Positions 3,126 to 16,860 of a DNA stretch of 20,807 nucleotides are shown here, one piece after another. The DNA comes from a virus: positions 1 through 20,807 of IMG/VR virus record IMGVR_UViG_3300035661_000371. One strand, given 5' to 3'. Each line of letters opens with the position of its first letter. Position 1 is the stretch's first letter. The notes beneath the pieces are model-generated. The model did not search any database, was not told the DNA's origin, and was given only the letters and a program-made list of their open reading frames with translations. The translations under genes were made by a program, and so were the position numbers.

Positions 3126-3292
3126 GCTTCACGGCCATCAAGGAAGCGCTCTGGCTGGTGAACAATGGAGTGCCGTGGGACGTTGCGATGAGCCTCGATG
3201 ACGTGGAGCGTGCCGCAATGTGCGTTATTTTCAGCGAGTTTCAGGGACACAAGTTCAACACCCAGACGATGCGCTTCGAGGACAAGCCATGA
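2784..3292 (+). CDS. Tail assembly chaperone, long -1 frameshift form
   Basis: A -1 slip at A AAA AAG (3113-3119) joins the 112 zero-frame codons to 57 codons in the -1 frame, giving 169 residues that end at TGA 3290-3292. The extension reads ALGFTAIKEALWLVNNGV and ends MRFEDKP. It has no start codon of its own with a ribosome binding site near the junction, is clearly protein-like, and fills the whole gap before the next gene. This is the conserved G/G-T (lambda) or E/E+E' (P2) arrangement, in which the shifted form is made in a minority of translations and the extension contacts the tube subunit. The next gene's ATG overlaps this stop codon. Confidence 0.88.
3113..3119 (+). promoter_or_regulatory. 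-1 ribosomal frameshift slippery site A AAA AAG
   Basis: The heptamer A AAA AAG lies in the correct phase (codons ATA AAA AAG) directly before CCC TAG, and is among the most slip-prone sequences known in E. coli. A possible stimulatory hairpin, GCTTC (3126-3130) with GAAGC (3143-3147), begins 6 nt after the heptamer, the usual spacing. The stem is only 5 bp, so its contribution is uncertain. Confidence 0.88.
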
Positions 3293-3765
3293 TGGAAATC
3301 AAGCAGTTTGCCCGTATGTTGGAAACGATGGCGATCCCGGCGGCGGCATCCGTCGCCCTTGATGCGGCGGCGGCAGTGATCGAGAGTGAGGCCAAAGCCG
3401 AGATCGGCACTTATCAGCGCTCCGACATGGGGCCGTTTCAGCCATGGGCGGAACTCAAGGACGCTACCAAGCTAGATCGCGTGCGGCTAGGGTTCACCCC
3501 GAATGATCCGCTACTGCGAACGGGAGACTTGCGCAATTCCATCTCGCGCGAAGTCCACGGCCTTGATGCTGTGGTGGGTTCAAACAGTGACGTGATGGTT
3601 TATCAGGAGTTGGGTACACGCACGATCCCGCCGCGTTCCGTGCTGGGATTGGCGGCATCGCGCAAGACGCAGGACGTGCTTAAACTGGTAGGCGAGAGCG
3701 TGCAAATCGCCTTCCTGGGCGGCGCGATCAATACCGCATCGCCGCCCAAATTGCCGCAAGAATGA
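3289..3765 (+). CDS. HK97 gp10-like tail completion / virion morphogenesis protein
   Basis: This protein of about 158 residues starts MMEIKQFARMLETMAI. Two adjacent ATG codons (3289 and 3292) could serve; GAGG at 3278-3281 suits 3289. It carries the pattern of the HK97 gp10 / gpG-type morphogenesis families: a helical start, an ESEAK stretch, PLLRTGDLRNSI, then VVGSNSDVMVYQELGTRTIPPR, where 'YQELGT...PPR' is the recognisable core. Those proteins complete the tail-head joint. Such genes usually lie upstream of the tube gene; here the gene sits between the chaperone and the tape measure. Its first ATG overlaps the frameshifted chaperone stop. The last 38 bp overlap the antisense membrane gene. 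Confidence 0.7.
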   Translation: MMEIKQFARMLETMAIPAAASVALDAAAAVIESEAKAEIGTYQRSDMGPFQPWAELKDATKLDRVRLGFTPNDPLLRTGDLRNSISREVHGLDAVVGSNSDVMVYQELGTRTIPPRSVLGLAASRKTQDVLKLVGESVQIAFLGGAINTASPPKLPQE

Positions 3766-3970
3766 ACACCAGTCCGACAACGACGAAAGCGGCAATAAGC
3801 ATGCCCACGCCTCCGCTGTTCCACATCGCCCAAACGAATAGCCCAATCAGCGCCAGCAGCATCAGGATGATCGGCACCAGGATGATGGCAGCAGTCGTTG
3901 CAAACAAACCCAAAGGCGTCAGCCACCACGGACGTTGATTCCCCTGCGTGGGGAACGGCCAATTTTTCAT
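3728..3970 (-). CDS. Antisense two-helix small membrane protein
   Basis: This ORF codes for 80 residues on the strand opposite to all neighbouring tail genes. Two strongly hydrophobic segments are visible: residues about 17-50 (including ATTAAIILVPIILMLLALIG) and 55-78 (GMLIAAFVVVGLVFILAAIW). A short polar N-terminus (MKNWPFPTQGNQRPWW) precedes them and the tail is RY. ATG 3970 has GGAG at a 6-nt spacing. The ORF fills the 215-bp gap between two forward genes, which no forward ORF explains. Function is unknown: a holin-like or superinfection-exclusion protein, or another independently transcribed moron, would fit. I see no convincing reverse promoter in the first bases of the tape measure gene. 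Real coding is likely but not proven. Confidence 0.6.
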   Translation of the reverse strand: MKNWPFPTQGNQRPWWLTPLGLFATTAAIILVPIILMLLALIGLFVWAMWNSGGVGMLIAAFVVVGLVFILAAIWAAMRY

Positions 3971-3983
3971 AGGAATCTCCATG
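3968..3983. promoter_or_regulatory. Interlocked divergent translation starts
   Basis: The 16-bp segment CATAGGAATCTCCATG contains two opposite start signals. Forward, AGGA (3971-3974) precedes ATG 3981 of the tape measure gene by 6 nt. Reverse, GGAG (complement of 3977-3980) precedes the ATG whose complement is 3970-3968, also by 6 nt. Both ribosome binding sites lie within the same 10 bp. Confidence 0.65.
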
Positions 3984-5906
3984 TTCGAGGCATACAAGAT
4001 CGGCATAAAACTGTCCTTGCTGGACGGTGTGACAGCCGGGCTATTAGCAATGTCCGGGCATTTTCGCACCGTTTCACGTGAGGTGGATACATTACAGGCG
4101 AAGATGGCGCGATTCAAGGCGCTAGGCGGTTTTGGCCTTGGCGCAACCGCTGCCGGTGTCGGAATCCTGGCGTCCATAAAGCCGTCCATTGATGCCGCAA
4201 TGCAGTATCAGCAGCGCATCGCACGCATGAAGCAGATGGGATTGACGCCTTCCGACATGCGTTCAGCCGAAAAGGCCGCGTGGGCGGTTGGCCGATCTGT
4301 GCCCACGTCCAGCCCGACCGATGCGCTGGACACAATTATGAACCTGCGCATGGTGTTTGGCGATACCGCAGACGCCATTAAAAACTTGCCGACCGTGCTC
4401 AGGATGGAAGGCGTGCTGAACAATGCCGGGCTGAAAGGCGATCAGTCCTATGAGATTGCGAAAACGCTGGAAATGATCGGCGCAACCAAGACGCCGGAAA
4501 TGTTCAACAGCTATGCCGATGCGATCACGAAAGGCATCATCGCATCCGGTGGAAAGGTACAGTCCGCAGATTATCTCTCCGCCGTCAAATATGGACGCAC
4601 GGCAGCGCAGGGGTGGAGCAAAGAATTCATCGAGTTTTATCTTCCGACGCTGATCCAGGAAATGAAGTCTCGCGGCGGATCGGGCGGCATTACAGGCGGC
4701 CCAGGGAATCCGCTGATGTCCATGTATGCTGCCATCGTGCAAGGCACAGTGGCGCAGAAATCGCTCGGCATGTTCCAAAAACTCGGACTCGTCGATCCAA
4801 GCAAGGTTGTCTGGACGAAGAGCCATATGATGCGCGGTGTTGAGCCTGGCGGGATCAAGGGATGGCGTGATTTCATGTCAAACCCTGTCGATTGGGTACA
4901 GTCCTACCTAATGCCAGCGCTACAAAAGGCAGGGATCACGGACCGCCAAGCGCAGGTTCAGGCGATCAGCTATCTTTTCCAGAATCGAACCGCCGGATTT
5001 ATGGGCGTGCAGATGGCCGAGCAATACTGGAAATTCCAGCGCGACCGCAAGTTGATTGAAGACACCAAGGGTATCAACAATTACAGCGAAATCATAAAAA
5101 TGTCGCCTTCCATGCAAGAAAAGGCGATTCACGCCCGTATGAGTGCGCTGAAAACAGTCGTCGGCTTGCAGCTTGTCCCATTGATCTTAACCGTGCTGCC
5201 TAAAATCGTTGATTTCATCCAATCCATCGTCAACACCGCTCAAGCTCATCCAACCGCGCTAAAGCTATTTATCGGATTCTTTGCTGCGATCGGGGCATTG
5301 CTGGCTGTAGTCGGAACAGTTACAAGTTTCGTCGCCTCGCTCGGCATTATTTCGATAGCGTTCCCGGCGCTTGCCGCAGGCGCGGGTGCCGTTGCCACGG
5401 CGATCGGTCCAGTGGTGCTTGTCCTTGCTGGCCTTGCTGCAGCAGGGGCGGCGGTTTATGGTGCTTATAAATGGCTGACGGGTGATCAGAATCAGAAAAA
5501 GCCACTCAGCTTCGCAGAAAACGTTGCGGCAAATAATCTTGCGCCCAAGACTGGCCTGGCATCGACAATGGCGTCAATGATGAGATCGGCAAAGACATCG
5601 CCTGTTATCGCGGGTGGTGTTTCCCAGCAGACAGCAATGCACGGGGCGATGACGATATCGCCAAAGATAGCGCCTGTTGTTCAGCTGGATGATTCTGATA
5701 TTATGGCGGCGTCACGTTATTTGCCGCCTAGTCCAGAAAAAAGCCAGCATGAGATTCATACACATGTCCATCTGGACGGCAAAAAGGTTGCAGAGTCCGT
5801 CACAAACTGGCAAGCAACCGCTGCCGCTAAACCGCCATCCGGCCCGAATCAGATCATGTGGGGGCTTGGCTTGAACAATCCGTCTCTCACGTCGGCGCTG
5901 CGCTGA
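3981..5906 (+). CDS. Tail tape measure protein
   Basis: This 641-residue protein is the longest in the tail module, as expected for the protein that sets tail length. At the roughly 0.15 nm per residue known for tape measures this would suggest a tail near 95 nm. The N-terminal third is helical (MSGHFRTVSREVDTLQAKMA). The region of residues about 400-510 holds several hydrophobic helices (LFIGFFAAIGALLAVVGTV, then FPALAAGAGAVATAIGPVVL), typical of tape measures that insert in the host inner membrane. The C-terminus has a polar HEIHTHVHLDGKKVAE motif, frequent near tape measure ends. ATG 3981 is chosen for its AGGA spacing; an upstream GTG (3948) is in frame but lacks a better site. The next gene starts 1 nt after the stop. 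Confidence 0.88.
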   Translation: MFEAYKIGIKLSLLDGVTAGLLAMSGHFRTVSREVDTLQAKMARFKALGGFGLGATAAGVGILASIKPSIDAAMQYQQRIARMKQMGLTPSDMRSAEKAAWAVGRSVPTSSPTDALDTIMNLRMVFGDTADAIKNLPTVLRMEGVLNNAGLKGDQSYEIAKTLEMIGATKTPEMFNSYADAITKGIIASGGKVQSADYLSAVKYGRTAAQGWSKEFIEFYLPTLIQEMKSRGGSGGITGGPGNPLMSMYAAIVQGTVAQKSLGMFQKLGLVDPSKVVWTKSHMMRGVEPGGIKGWRDFMSNPVDWVQSYLMPALQKAGITDRQAQVQAISYLFQNRTAGFMGVQMAEQYWKFQRDRKLIEDTKGINNYSEIIKMSPSMQEKAIHARMSALKTVVGLQLVPLILTVLPKIVDFIQSIVNTAQAHPTALKLFIGFFAAIGALLAVVGTVTSFVASLGIISIAFPALAAGAGAVATAIGPVVLVLAGLAAAGAAVYGAYKWLTGDQNQKKPLSFAENVAANNLAPKTGLASTMASMMRSAKTSPVIAGGVSQQTAMHGAMTISPKIAPVVQLDDSDIMAASRYLPPSPEKSQHEIHTHVHLDGKKVAESVTNWQATAAAKPPSGPNQIMWGLGLNNPSLTSALR

Positions 5907-13164: not shown

Positions 13165-13551
13165 ATGCCAATCGACAACAGCATACACGCCCACGAAACC
13201 AGACTAACCGTGCTTGAGGAGCAAACGCGCGAGATACGCAGCACGCTCAAAGAGCTTGCTACAGACATGCGCCGATTGGCCGAAGCCACGATCCAGCAGG
13301 CCGAAGACCGGGCCGCGCTCAAACGGGCCTTCGAGCAGATCGAGCGTATCGACAACCGGATCACAGCCCTGCAAAAGGATATCGAGAAGGCCGAGAAAGA
13401 GCGACTGGAGCGATCCGCGAAAGACGCCGAGCGCGATCTCAGCCAAGTTCGGGAAGACAAGAGAAAGTTCTACTGGATGCTGGTGAGCTACGTGATGGCG
13501 GCAGTATTTGGTGCTGTATTGGCGCACTTCGGAATCACAGTGATGAAATGA
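13165..13551 (+). CDS. Coiled-coil protein with C-terminal membrane anchor
   Basis: This 128-residue protein has a long charged helix (residues about 10-100, with heptad-like spacing in ETRLTVLEEQTREIRSTL and RIDNRITALQKDIEKAEKER) and one membrane segment (FYWMLVSYVMAAVFGAVLA, 102-120). Such tail-anchored coiled coils occur in lysis cassettes (XhlA-like proteins), which suggests help for the holin, but I see no exact family match. An in-frame stop at 13159-13161 fixes the start at or after ATG 13165. No clear Shine-Dalgarno sequence precedes this ATG, which is unusual here. It is the first gene after the tail-module terminator. Orientation of the membrane segment excludes a classical inner-membrane spanin, whose anchor is N-terminal. 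Confidence 0.75.
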   Translation: MPIDNSIHAHETRLTVLEEQTREIRSTLKELATDMRRLAEATIQQAEDRAALKRAFEQIERIDNRITALQKDIEKAEKERLERSAKDAERDLSQVREDKRKFYWMLVSYVMAAVFGAVLAHFGITVMK

Positions 13552-13610
13552 ACAGTTACGCCGATTCCGATAGCCGCCGCGCATTGCCGCCTAGCGCCGT
13601 ACAATGCCAC

Positions 13611-13650
13611 TAACGGACGCTAACGGACGCTAACGGACGCTAACGGACGC
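13611..13650. repeat. Tandem repeat, 4 perfect copies of TAACGGACGC
   Basis: Four identical 10-bp units occupy the 127-bp gap between the coiled-coil gene and the putative lysin gene. The repeat ends 14 nt before the strong ribosome binding site (GGGGAGG, 13665-13671) of the lysin. A TACAAT element that could be a -10 box lies just upstream (13600-13605), though no matching -35 box is evident. Confidence 0.97.
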
Positions 13651-13678
13651 AACTATTGACGAACGGGGAGGAAAACAA

Positions 13679-14086
13679 ATGATTAAGCAGACTCCCGGAG
13701 AGCGAAATTGCAATCCGGGCAATATTGAACACAGCACCACGAAATGGCGCGGGATGTGCGAACAGCAGACTGATGCGCGGTTTGTCTCATTCCAGACGCC
13801 GCAATACGGCATCCGCGCATTGGCTACCGTGCTGCTGACGTATTACCGTCAGCACAACCTCAAGACTATTTCCGGGATCATCAAACGATTCGCCCCGCCA
13901 AGTGAGAACGACACGCAAGGCTACATCATGGCCGTAGCTCAAGAGGTTGGAGTAAATCCTGATGAGATTATCAATGTCAGCAACAGGGATACACTCGAAA
14001 AATTGGTGACGGCAATTATCCGGCACGAAAATGGGCGAGTGCCATATTCGCCTGATATTATACGGGCGGGGGTGGATTTAGCTTGA
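13679..14086 (+). CDS. Putative phage lysin / structural protein of the NPGNI family
   Basis: This 135-residue protein begins IKQTPGERNCNPGNIEHS, close to the 'RN.NPGNI' motif found in a phage family annotated as structural protein or lysozyme-like. Further family features are WRGMCEQQTDARFVSFQTPQ, YGIRALATVLLTYY, ISGIIKRFAPPSENDTQGYI and a helical C-terminus. It is not one of the well-known lysozyme folds, but it leads a cassette with a holin-like and a spanin-like gene, so it is the best endolysin candidate in this window. ATG 13679 has a near-perfect site GGGGAGG, 7 nt upstream. No signal peptide is visible, so it would need a holin to reach the cell wall. Catalytic residues cannot be named from sequence alone. 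Confidence 0.68.
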   Translation: MIKQTPGERNCNPGNIEHSTTKWRGMCEQQTDARFVSFQTPQYGIRALATVLLTYYRQHNLKTISGIIKRFAPPSENDTQGYIMAVAQEVGVNPDEIINVSNRDTLEKLVTAIIRHENGRVPYSPDIIRAGVDLA

Positions 14087-14598
14087 ACAACGACGACAAA
14101 AGGATGCGGGGCTTGTTCCTGGTGACGGGCGTCATGCTTTGGTTTGCCTTCTTTTCTGCCGGCGCATTCGGCGGATCACTGCCAGACCCCGCGCTTACCC
14201 CCGGCGTGACGCGCGACATGACGCTTGACCAAGTATGTAACACCAAGTGGGGCAAGGACGCTAGGGCAGTGACCGCGGCAATGAAAGCGCACGTTTACGC
14301 CGAGTATCATATGACACAGCATCAGGGAGATTGCGCGCTGTCGCCTCGTGGATGTGAAATTGACCACGCTATCAGTCGGGAATTAGCAGGCGCTGACGAT
14401 GTGCGCAACCTTTGGCCTCAACCATACGGCGGCCAGTGTAACGCCGTGGACAAAGACCGGCTGGAGAACAAACTGCACGCGCTGGTATGCGCCAAAGCCA
14501 TCACCATCGAAAAGGCCCAGCAGGCCATCGCCAGGAATTGGATAGAAGCCTATCGCGCCTACATCGGCCCTATAACATGCGCCAAGGAATCGCCATGA
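14083..14598 (+). CDS. Exported Cys-rich His-Me-finger (HNH-like) nuclease
   Basis: This 171-residue protein has an N-terminal hydrophobic segment (residues 10-30, GLFLVTGVMLWFAFFSAGAF) that looks like a signal peptide or anchor, preceded by basic residues. The rest carries an HNH-like pattern: CEIDHAISRELAGADDVRN then LWPQPY, NAVDKDRLENKLHALVC. His95, Asn109 and the downstream Asn120/Lys124 could form the metal-binding finger. There are six cysteines (52, 84, 91, 119, 136, 166), consistent with disulfides outside the cytoplasm. Start is TTG 14083, overlapping the previous stop (TTGA) with GGTGGA 6 nt upstream; the next ATG (14104) lacks a proper site. It is coupled to the lysin and holin-like genes. 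Nuclease activity is inferred, not proven. Confidence 0.68.
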   Translation: MNNDDKRMRGLFLVTGVMLWFAFFSAGAFGGSLPDPALTPGVTRDMTLDQVCNTKWGKDARAVTAAMKAHVYAEYHMTQHQGDCALSPRGCEIDHAISRELAGADDVRNLWPQPYGGQCNAVDKDRLENKLHALVCAKAITIEKAQQAIARNWIEAYRAYIGPITCAKESP

Positions 14599-14810
14599 CA
14601 AAATTCATTACCGATAACCAAAAGCTCATCGGAGGAATACTGATGTTCGGCCTGTGGGCGTTTCTGGTGCTTGCCTACAAAGCGCCGGTTGACGATCTGA
14701 TTACATGGATCAAGATCGGGCTTGGTGCCGTGTTCGGTATTCACGCCGTGACCAACTTCTCAGCTAATCCTCCACCACCAAACGACCAGACAAAGGAGCC
14801 GAATCCATGA
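14595..14810 (+). CDS. Small holin-like protein, two membrane segments
   Basis: This 71-residue protein has two hydrophobic segments, residues about 11-29 (LIGGILMFGLWAFLVLAYK) and 35-54 (LITWIKIGLGAVFGIHAVTN), joined by a short loop with PVDD, and a polar proline-rich tail (NPPPPNDQTKEP). Size, two segments and place in the cassette fit a class II holin, which would form inner-membrane lesions that release the lysin. ATG 14595 overlaps the nuclease stop (ATGA) and has AAGGAAT about 4-10 nt upstream; a longer in-frame extension overlapping the nuclease gene is unlikely. The stop overlaps the lipoprotein start. No family signature is evident beyond the topology. Confidence 0.7.
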   Translation: MTKFITDNQKLIGGILMFGLWAFLVLAYKAPVDDLITWIKIGLGAVFGIHAVTNFSANPPPPNDQTKEPNP

Positions 14811-15277
14811 AAAACTATATCTTGCTCGCCGTGCTCATATCATTGTCAGGATGCGCCAGCCTGCAATATGCAGGGATATCCAAATTTGACGCCGTTCCGA
14901 TCGTGGACGCAAAAACTGGCGCCGTGACGTGCTGCGAGATACACGGTGTATCCGGGAAGGAATACGCGGCGTTGAATATTGCTGCCAGCCGTAACGCCGA
15001 TGGCGTGATTAGTCTGACTGTCGCGGAGTCGGGAACAAAGGCGTTTGAGGGGCAGGCAATTTCTGCTGGTGCAACACAAGCTGCGATTGATGCTGCTGCA
15101 AAAGCCGCTGTAGCCGCTGCGCTCGCTCCAATACTTCCTGCGCTTGTTCCTGCCGCCGGTGCTGCTCTTGCTTCGCCTGGGCTTGGTGCTGCCGCTGTCG
15201 GCGCTGGTGGCGTGCTTGGCGCTCAAAAACTGCTGGCACCGGCATCTGGGCAAGGACTAAAGTCTCCCGCGCCATGA
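14807..15277 (+). CDS. Lipoprotein, candidate single-gene spanin
   Basis: This 156-residue protein has a lipoprotein signal peptide: MKNYILLAVLISLSGC with lipobox LSGC at residues 13-16, so Cys16 would be lipidated. Residues about 25-85 look strand-rich (TGAVTCCEIHGVSG, YAALNIAASRNADGVISLTV). Residues about 88-145 are Ala/Gly-rich and hydrophobic (AAVAAALAPILPALVPAAGA) and could cross the inner membrane. Outer-membrane lipid anchor plus C-terminal membrane segment is the layout of unimolecular spanins such as T1 gp11, which join the two membranes at the end of lysis. No separate two-gene spanin pair is visible in the window. The function is inferred from layout; a plain periplasmic lipoprotein is the alternative. 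AAAGGAG lies 8 nt before ATG 14807. Confidence 0.72.
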   Translation: MKNYILLAVLISLSGCASLQYAGISKFDAVPIVDAKTGAVTCCEIHGVSGKEYAALNIAASRNADGVISLTVAESGTKAFEGQAISAGATQAAIDAAAKAAVAAALAPILPALVPAAGAALASPGLGAAAVGAGGVLGAQKLLAPASGQGLKSPAP

Positions 15278-16219: not shown

Positions 16220-16450
16220 TTATATCTTAGCATCAGGCCATTGCCCAATGTCCCGGTACAACTGCTCCAGCTCACCGTCCCACGGAACGAATGCGCGCAC
16301 ACTGTCATGCATTCCCCACTCTTTGCCACAGCGCGTGCAACCAACCTTTCTGTTTGTCGGGCCGAAAACCCGTTGCACCACGTAGCGATGTCCAAACTGC
16401 GCGCATATAACCCCATTAAAACCGCGCCATCTTAATCTTGTGCATGTCAT
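16220..16450 (-). CDS. Small zinc-ribbon-like protein, DUF1660-like
   Basis: This 76-residue protein has a possible zinc site: C and H in GVICAQFGHRY and C..C in VGCTRCGKEWGMH. The pattern 'C..FGH ... C.RCG' matches the DUF1660 prophage family. The rest is VRAFVPWDGELEQLYRDIGQ. I chose ATG 16450 because it overlaps the upstream stop in an ATGA arrangement; an in-frame ATG at 16480 lacks a ribosome binding site. Such small zinc-ribbon proteins are often encoded in early phage operons; their targets are unknown. Confidence 0.7.
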   Translation of the reverse strand: MTCTRLRWRGFNGVICAQFGHRYVVQRVFGPTNRKVGCTRCGKEWGMHDSVRAFVPWDGELEQLYRDIGQWPDAKI

Positions 16451-16860
16451 GGCCGGTATACACCATCGCCGGTGTTCCATGCTTCGTTCATATCGCGGTC
16501 GAATCTGTCGTGCTCCTCATAATCATCTTTCAGAAGATCGCACAGCAAGATATGTATCTCATCATCGCCACGCTGTACGATCGCCGCCTCGTCGGAAACA
16601 TAAATCACTTCTCCAAGGCTAAGCCTGCGTCCGATCAACCAGTCCCATTGCCCACTCATTTTCAACTTCTCATTCGGTATTTTACTGGACGCGCTAACAA
16701 GTGTGCTTATAAAGTGACAGTCATCACAATTCATTCTACAGTCACATGAATCACAGTCCAATGAATCACACTCCAACTTGCCGTTGCGCTTTTTAATGTT
16801 TCCGCCACAGGCACGCATGAAACTAGGTTCTTCGTCTTCTGGTATTCCGTCAAACGCCAT
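16447..16860 (-). CDS. Cysteine-rich acidic protein, unknown
   Basis: This 137-residue acidic protein (start MAFDGIPEDEEPSFMRACGG) has a dense cysteine cluster at residues about 30-50: LECDSLDCDSCDCRMNCDDC followed by HF, i.e. seven Cys in 19 residues, consistent with metal binding. The second half is ordinary globular sequence (GQWDWLIGRRLSLGEVIYVS, DDEIHILLCDLL) and ends in acidic DDYEEHDRFDRD. The DNA coding for the cluster holds a 15-bp tandem duplication. GGAG lies 6 nt before ATG 16860. I do not recognise a family. The stop overlaps the next gene's start. Confidence 0.75.
   Translation of the reverse strand: MAFDGIPEDEEPSFMRACGGNIKKRNGKLECDSLDCDSCDCRMNCDDCHFISTLVSASSKIPNEKLKMSGQWDWLIGRRLSLGEVIYVSDEAAIVQRGDDEIHILLCDLLKDDYEEHDRFDRDMNEAWNTGDGVYRP
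16746..16775. repeat. 15-bp tandem duplication inside a cysteine-rich gene
   Basis: ATGAATCACAGTCCA (16746-16760) and ATGAATCACACTCCA (16761-16775) differ at one base. On the reverse strand the two units code for CDSCD and CDSLD-type pentapeptides, so the duplication expands the cysteine cluster without changing the frame. Confidence 0.85.

Follow-up and report, generated by a model that had tools for sequence, protein, structure and literature searches.

What does a gene for a small protein with two hydrophobic segments do on the opposite strand of a tail operon, between the genes for a gp10-like tail completion protein and the tape measure protein (TMP)? The question is raised by the window, that is, the entire 20,807-nucleotide stretch analyzed here, which comes from a soil phage (IMG/VR virus record IMGVR_UViG_3300035661_000371, positions 1 to 20,807). 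Antisense genes for predicted membrane proteins recur at this slot in many related phages and prophages, the window being one example, and an earlier note on this DNA, which had singled out the gene from the letters alone, was right and understated the case. The features of the locus are collected in Table 1.

Table 1. Features of the gp10-TMP junction in the window
Feature	Position	Strand	Basis
gp10-like tail completion gene, flanks the slot	3220-3765	+	phrog_26, E 1.8e-14
Antisense gene of a predicted two-helix membrane protein, 80 aa	3728-3970	-	ORF, relatives in 7 viral contigs, dN/dS, model
AGGAA, ribosome site of TMP, flanked by the antisense start codon on one side and the antisense GGAG on the other	3971-3975	+	sequence
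GGAG, ribosome site 6 nt ahead of the antisense ATG	3977-3980	-	sequence
CATG, TMP ATG (3981-3983) overlapping an in-frame antisense ATG (3980-3982)	3980-3983		sequence
Tape measure gene (TMP), flanks the slot	3981-5906	+	phrog_28, E 1.1e-19, scanned from a longer start at 3948
Weak promoter-like site within TMP codons (TTGAAT and TGTAAT, 15 nt apart), the best of those upstream of the antisense gene	4091-4117	-	0.91 percentile of synonymous recodings

The 80-residue reverse open reading frame (ORF) with two hydrophobic segments and a GGAG site is present as the earlier note described it. It starts with an ATG; the longest ORF call in the same frame starts at 4189, and the in-frame ATG at 3982 yields an 84-aa version of the protein. 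The forward gap, from the gp10-like stop to the TMP ATG, indeed measures 215 nt, but the reverse ORF, which was said to fill it exactly, extends 38 nt into the gp10-like gene and leaves 10 nt between its own start and the TMP ATG. The ribosome sites of TMP and of the antisense gene are interleaved. AlphaFold2 predicts two helices (residues 19-52 and 55-78; mean pLDDT 76), and the protein is probably located in the membrane. The tail sheath gene (phrog_23, E 2.6e-30) lies three genes above gp10, which implies that the phage has a contractile tail.

The reverse ORF of the window is almost certainly a genuine gene under purifying selection, judging from its conservation and the pattern of substitutions. 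Relatives of the protein are encoded in 7 viral contigs, five at 94-96%, one at 81% and one (3300030408_000021) at 46% identity. The synonymous-biased substitution in the reverse frame that had been proposed as a check is found in 3 of 4 comparisons, with dN/dS values of 0.16, 0.26 and 0.25 for the window against L040, L028 and L042, respectively; in the fourth, against L039, the value of 0.67 derives from 9 differences (3 synonymous, 6 non-synonymous), and another frame scores lower there. For the other stop-free reverse frame, the ratio between the window and L042 is 2.29. Across 12 pairs of related copies, drawn from the whole set, with one pair identical and some sequences used twice, the differences at antisense codon positions 1, 2 and 3 number 81, 36 and 183. 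L039/L006 and the window share 98.5% identity across 9,970 nt, yet the antisense gene differs at 9 of 243 nt, with 6 amino-acid changes, as if locally recombined or relaxed. An open frame alone is weak evidence because 24% of mononucleotide shuffles of the gap keep some reverse frame open. That the frame is open by chance and has no function is nonetheless exceedingly improbable and is refuted in practice by the conservation, by the substitution pattern and by the statistics of the slot.

These statistics come from 86 gp10-TMP junctions, namely, those of the best 80 of 150 viral loci retrieved with a profile of the gp10-like protein, 4 further loci, a Paraburkholderia bannensis prophage and the window; 3 of these end too early, leaving 83 readable junctions. 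In 67 of the 83, a filter detects an antisense ORF that is 59-95 aa long and hydrophobic in its C-terminal part; one (L091) has a frameshifted copy, and 15 have none. These counts are not independent, with several near copies in the set and with L038 (strain WP4_2_2) and L086 representing the same P. bannensis prophage. Elsewhere in those loci, the same filter is passed at 4 of 1,892 other forward stops and at 8 of 2,348 random positions. Junctions with the antisense gene have gaps of 180-874 nt, with a median of 237 (TMP start called in 56 of the 65 loci tested), and all 15 junctions without it have gaps of at most 21 nt: -17 to 21 nt in the 13 with a called TMP start, and 12 and 3 nt, by ORF start, in the other two. 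Relatives that keep the gap and break the frame, an outcome that the earlier note had held against a gene, are not observed; apart from the single frameshifted copy, gap and gene go together in the readable junctions. The slot and the strand of the antisense gene are fixed.

Other genes also occur in this junction. Forward cargo is present at L083 8692-9348 (+), L068 1747-2286 (+) and L150 3584-4402 (+), and consists of ORFs that, by eye, resemble GIY-YIG and HNH endonucleases and of an annotated BRO-family gene; the gp10-TMP junction may accept insertions in general. At L111 1858-2244 (-), there is a second antisense ORF, the start of which resembles a signal peptide by eye, and another second antisense gene, at L012 6556-7017 (-), is located in the slot upstream of a two-helix gene. 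The product of the latter (P0006) is lipoprotein-like (MAGC signal, by eye) and matches gp33 of Mycobacterium phage Xavia (31% over 88 aa), the gene of which adjoins the Xavia integrase. On a Pantoea dispersa plasmid (NZ_CP106661.1; L153 3504-6495), a gp10-like gene is followed by three antisense hypothetical genes, one of them with a hydrophobic segment, and no TMP is found within the 6.5-kb stretch.

At the level of sequence, the slot appears to be filled by at least two unrelated membrane proteins, one of the WLAD type and the other of the two-helix type found in the window. Among 44 non-redundant slot proteins (<90% identity), 38 align as one family (A5, WLAD/VQYP), with L068, L071 and L082 left out as not clearly alignable. 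The A5 proteins have an N-terminal part with the majority motif EWLADRxxxVQYP (no column is invariant, and L063 is among the members that depart from it), followed by a linker of variable sequence and a C-terminal part that is hydrophobic; AlphaFold2 predicts helices at residues 5-16 and 46-82 (mean pLDDT 84.7). The two-helix type (A6) accounts for 3 of the 44. The slot proteins at L071 8509-8688 (-) and L150 4600-4812 (-) have in common a GRIIDxxxV-like start, seen by eye, and may represent a third sequence type. Homology between A6 and A5 is not detectable with hhalign (probability 7.9% over 12 columns) or hmmsearch (E 1). The window protein shares the layout of A5, being encoded antisense between the gp10-like gene and TMP and having a hydrophobic C-terminal part, and in the gp10 tree, the A6 phages group with two A5-bearing phages (support 83/85). 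Thus placed, A6 would be either an extremely diverged form of A5 or its replacement.

None of these proteins has an established name. Searches of PHROGs, Pfam, NCBIfam and PADLOC with the 38 A5 members gave matches of single members only (best E 0.0027), and no family covers A5. For the window protein (P0001), Pfam had no match at E 1, and the best matches were at E 0.96 in PHROGs, 2.5 in NCBIfam and 0.95 in PADLOC. No family in the four libraries covers the antisense gene of the window. Among isolated phages, the L018 and L064 antisense proteins had no tblastn match, and P0001 matched only at E 6-7. An account of an antisense gene beside TMP was not found in the listed titles and opening parts of abstracts, or in passages of PMC9658991, PMC13190303 and PMC3091744. 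The slot genes make up a recurrent, unnamed set of predicted phage membrane genes, which are easily missed because they run backwards through a structural operon.

The antisense genes are often packed tightly against their neighbors. Of the 44 non-redundant loci, 23 have an antisense stop and a gp10 stop that overlap by 4 nt (TTAG, CTAG or TTAA). A TMP start was called in 36 loci, and in 18 of these the antisense and TMP start codons overlap as CATG; 13 loci have both overlaps. With the gene often overlapping both neighbors and spanning the TMP ribosome site, the functional product might be an antisense RNA that pairs with the end of gp10 and with this site and lowers the synthesis of tail proteins, the protein itself being secondary. 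This is improbable, given that the changes fall mostly at antisense codon position 3 and conserve the amino acids; that a protein unrelated in sequence can take over the slot likewise points to a role of the protein.

On the gp10 tree, which contains 60 proteins, the antisense gene switches between presence and absence 9 times, compared with 8 times on the TMP tree of 57 proteins; the frameshifted copy in L091 is scored as absent. The closest partner of L060, which lacks the gene, is the gene-bearing L044 (99/88 on the gp10 tree), and the L060 junction retains just a short spacer with a ribosome site. This repeated gain and loss implies that the antisense protein is not an essential part of the tail. 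The strict linkage to gp10 and TMP might instead reflect a factor for tail assembly or the virion that is needed only under some conditions, is produced at a low level from a separate promoter and acts at the membrane on TMP or gp10, but such a factor would be missing in 15 of 83 phages that retain both flanking genes, in addition to the 8-9 changes of presence on the trees, and its gene would lie on the wrong strand for late expression. We consider this role distinctly unlikely.

The slot genes also occur in bacterial genomes. In 398 genomes of the P. bannensis family, a search with A5 alone identified 25 places in 22 genomes. All 14 strong places (E 3.3e-7 or better; 13 of the 398 genomes, two places being copies in one genome) occupy the slot between gp10 and TMP on the antisense strand. 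The remaining places comprise the second half of a frameshifted copy and 10 weaker matches (E 6.7e-5 to 9.4e-4) that were rejected, with neither gp10 nor TMP beside them. Two of the strong places are identical to A5 members (L120 to L086 and L121 to L064), and the others show 32-77% identity to the nearest member over 20-90 residues; two are broken, L122 by an internal stop and L132 by a frameshift. Across the phylum, 4 of 398 genomes match A5, strongly only P. bannensis. A search of genome contigs with A1 found no relative. The window type, A6, was not found in the 398 genomes of one family: matches in 9 of them (E 1.1e-5 to 8.4e-4) were rejected as generic membrane matches because each sits in an open frame of at least 209 aa. 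A plasmid of Aquitalea sp. USM4 (NZ_CP029540.1) encodes, before TMP and in antisense orientation, a hypothetical protein of 70 aa (WP_131361177.1) that matches A5 weakly (E 0.004), and in a distant isolate, Komagataeibacter phage phiKX1, gp10 and TMP are 16 nt apart and there is no antisense gene. The main family, A5, does not roam and is confined to the gp10-TMP slot in 14 of 14 strong genome places.

This confinement bears on the possibility that the slot carries membrane cargo that is not directed at TMP and that benefits the lysogen or the infecting phage in another way, through a change of the host membrane, as a toxin or by blocking unrelated phages or a host transporter. The slot proteins are small, hydrophobic and optional, they occur in bacterial genomes, and TMP is not singled out by co-divergence: in 27 phages, the partial correlation of the antisense protein is 0.14 with TMP (p 0.05), 0.22 with the downstream gene (p 0.02) and 0.10 with gp10 (p 0.13), that is, its divergence follows TMP no better than other tail genes. 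For freely useful cargo, it would be odd that A5 is unseen away from the tail module, and we regard this alternative as somewhat unlikely.

Prophage morons are characterized by insertion between genes that abut in relatives, their own promoter, their own terminator and expression in the prophage. The independently transcribed moron envisaged in the earlier note stands as far as insertion is concerned, the slot gene being an optional insert between tail genes that lie at most 21 nt apart in the 15 junctions without it. As for independent transcription, no terminator-like site is found in the window between 3300 and 4400, and codon-level promoter statistics hint that the antisense gene may have a promoter of its own. 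In a scan with rough hexamer weights, the antisense strand of TMP codons 2-50 has a mean percentile of 0.69 (SE 0.04, n=37) relative to synonymous recodings, compared with 0.40-0.49 for four other stretches of TMP. In a repeat scan, the forward strand scored 0.58, and TMPs without an antisense gene scored 0.53 (antisense) and 0.60 (forward; n=12); permutation of the codons within the stretch reduced the antisense signal to 0.60 (SE 0.04).

Signs of lysogeny are mixed. A search of 40 contigs at E 0.001 found a tyrosine integrase in 22, of which 20 scored above the curated cut-off; the 22 include 20 of 35 contigs with the antisense gene and 2 of 5 without it. In genome G155, the antisense gene points in the same direction as a gene that, by eye, encodes a repressor-like HTH protein. 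The closest long relative of the window (41.5 kb) has no match to PF00589, PF00239 or PF00665, and contains small ORFs that are Cro-like by eye. The same relative carries an early-gene stretch (encoding an MAF..IPEDEE protein) twice, at 92.6% identity (L154 1-691 and L155 17025-17715); the window entry for this stretch is 16447-16860 (-).

Two short hydrophobic helices are also compatible with a lysis protein, that is, a second holin, as previously suggested, or an antiholin. Holins are encoded with the late lysis genes, and the antisense gene of the window is not; it runs against the late genes, and a lysis-like cluster (13165-15277, +) is about 9 kb away, so a holin is unlikely. Moreover, most slot proteins combine a conserved soluble N-terminal part with a single helix. 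All told, a lysis role is very improbable. The cluster itself encodes an XhlA-like protein (PF10779, E 1.3e-7, just under the cut-off), an endolysin/transglycosylase-like protein (phrog_873, E 3e-58), a protein that has no match but by eye resembles a secreted HNH nuclease, a protein with one helix, and a lipoprotein-like protein whose signal peptide marginally matches Cor (E 0.0099).

The most likely function of the antisense gene of the window, by analogy with known systems, is superinfection exclusion, for which we estimate a probability of roughly 0.45. The small size of the slot proteins, their predicted membrane location, their dispensability, their linkage to TMP, their occurrence in bacterial genomes and an orientation opposite to the late genes would all suit an exclusion protein. 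Such a protein would be made in the lysogen or early in infection and, in the inner membrane, would block DNA entry of incoming phages with a related TMP. Against TMP as the target speaks the co-divergence described above, in which the antisense protein correlates no more closely with TMP than with the downstream tail gene. The antisense orientation would make expression possible at times when the late tail genes are off, and collisions between transcripts in the making, together with the interleaved ribosome sites, would shut the gene down during the production of tail proteins. A more specific version of the exclusion reading, which we hold to be rather unlikely, is that TMP and its membrane antagonist, lying head to head with the CATG overlap and the interleaved ribosome sites, form an either-or switch: the cell would make either TMP, for tail assembly, or, in lysogeny, an exclusion protein that acts against TMP. 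If this is true, the tails of the phage itself would be shielded from the protein that jams the TMPs of rivals. The slot also raises a testable question, namely, whether an exclusion protein can be encoded beside, and be silenced by, the very TMP gene on whose product it acts.

Several known systems resemble the proposed one in part. P22 SieA is an inner-membrane block to DNA entry; according to the consulted part of PMC10883804, it is a protein of 162-164 aa with three predicted helices that acts on the ejection proteins of a short-tailed phage. Streptococcus phage TP-J34 Ltp is described in the parts consulted of PMC10883804 and PMC3952083 as an envelope protein that is expressed from the prophage and blocks DNA entry, and the former source reports that this exclusion is overcome by changes in TMP; unlike the slot proteins, Ltp is a lipoprotein from the lysogeny module, not the tail operon (PMC3952083, in the part consulted). 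The HK97 gp23 "reverse moron product" is a cargo gene annotated opposite to the tail-gene strand, as is the slot gene, but is located before the tail fibre gene J rather than at TMP; the likeness drawn here is one of annotation. The closest in position is HK97 gp15 (phrog_5031), a small predicted inner-membrane protein encoded, like the slot gene, next to TMP, directly upstream of it, but on the tail strand. Homology was not detected by hhalign (probability 0.25% for A5 and 1.15% for A6), nor did phrog_5031 match P0001 or any of the 38 A5 members. As reported in the consulted part of PMC10883804, exclusion by gp15 is escaped by hybrids with the tail tube and TMP genes of HK022, and the HK97 tail is non-contractile, whereas the tail of the window phage is contractile by gene content. 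If the function proposed here is correct, contractile tails would join the non-contractile ones from which TMP-linked exclusion is known.
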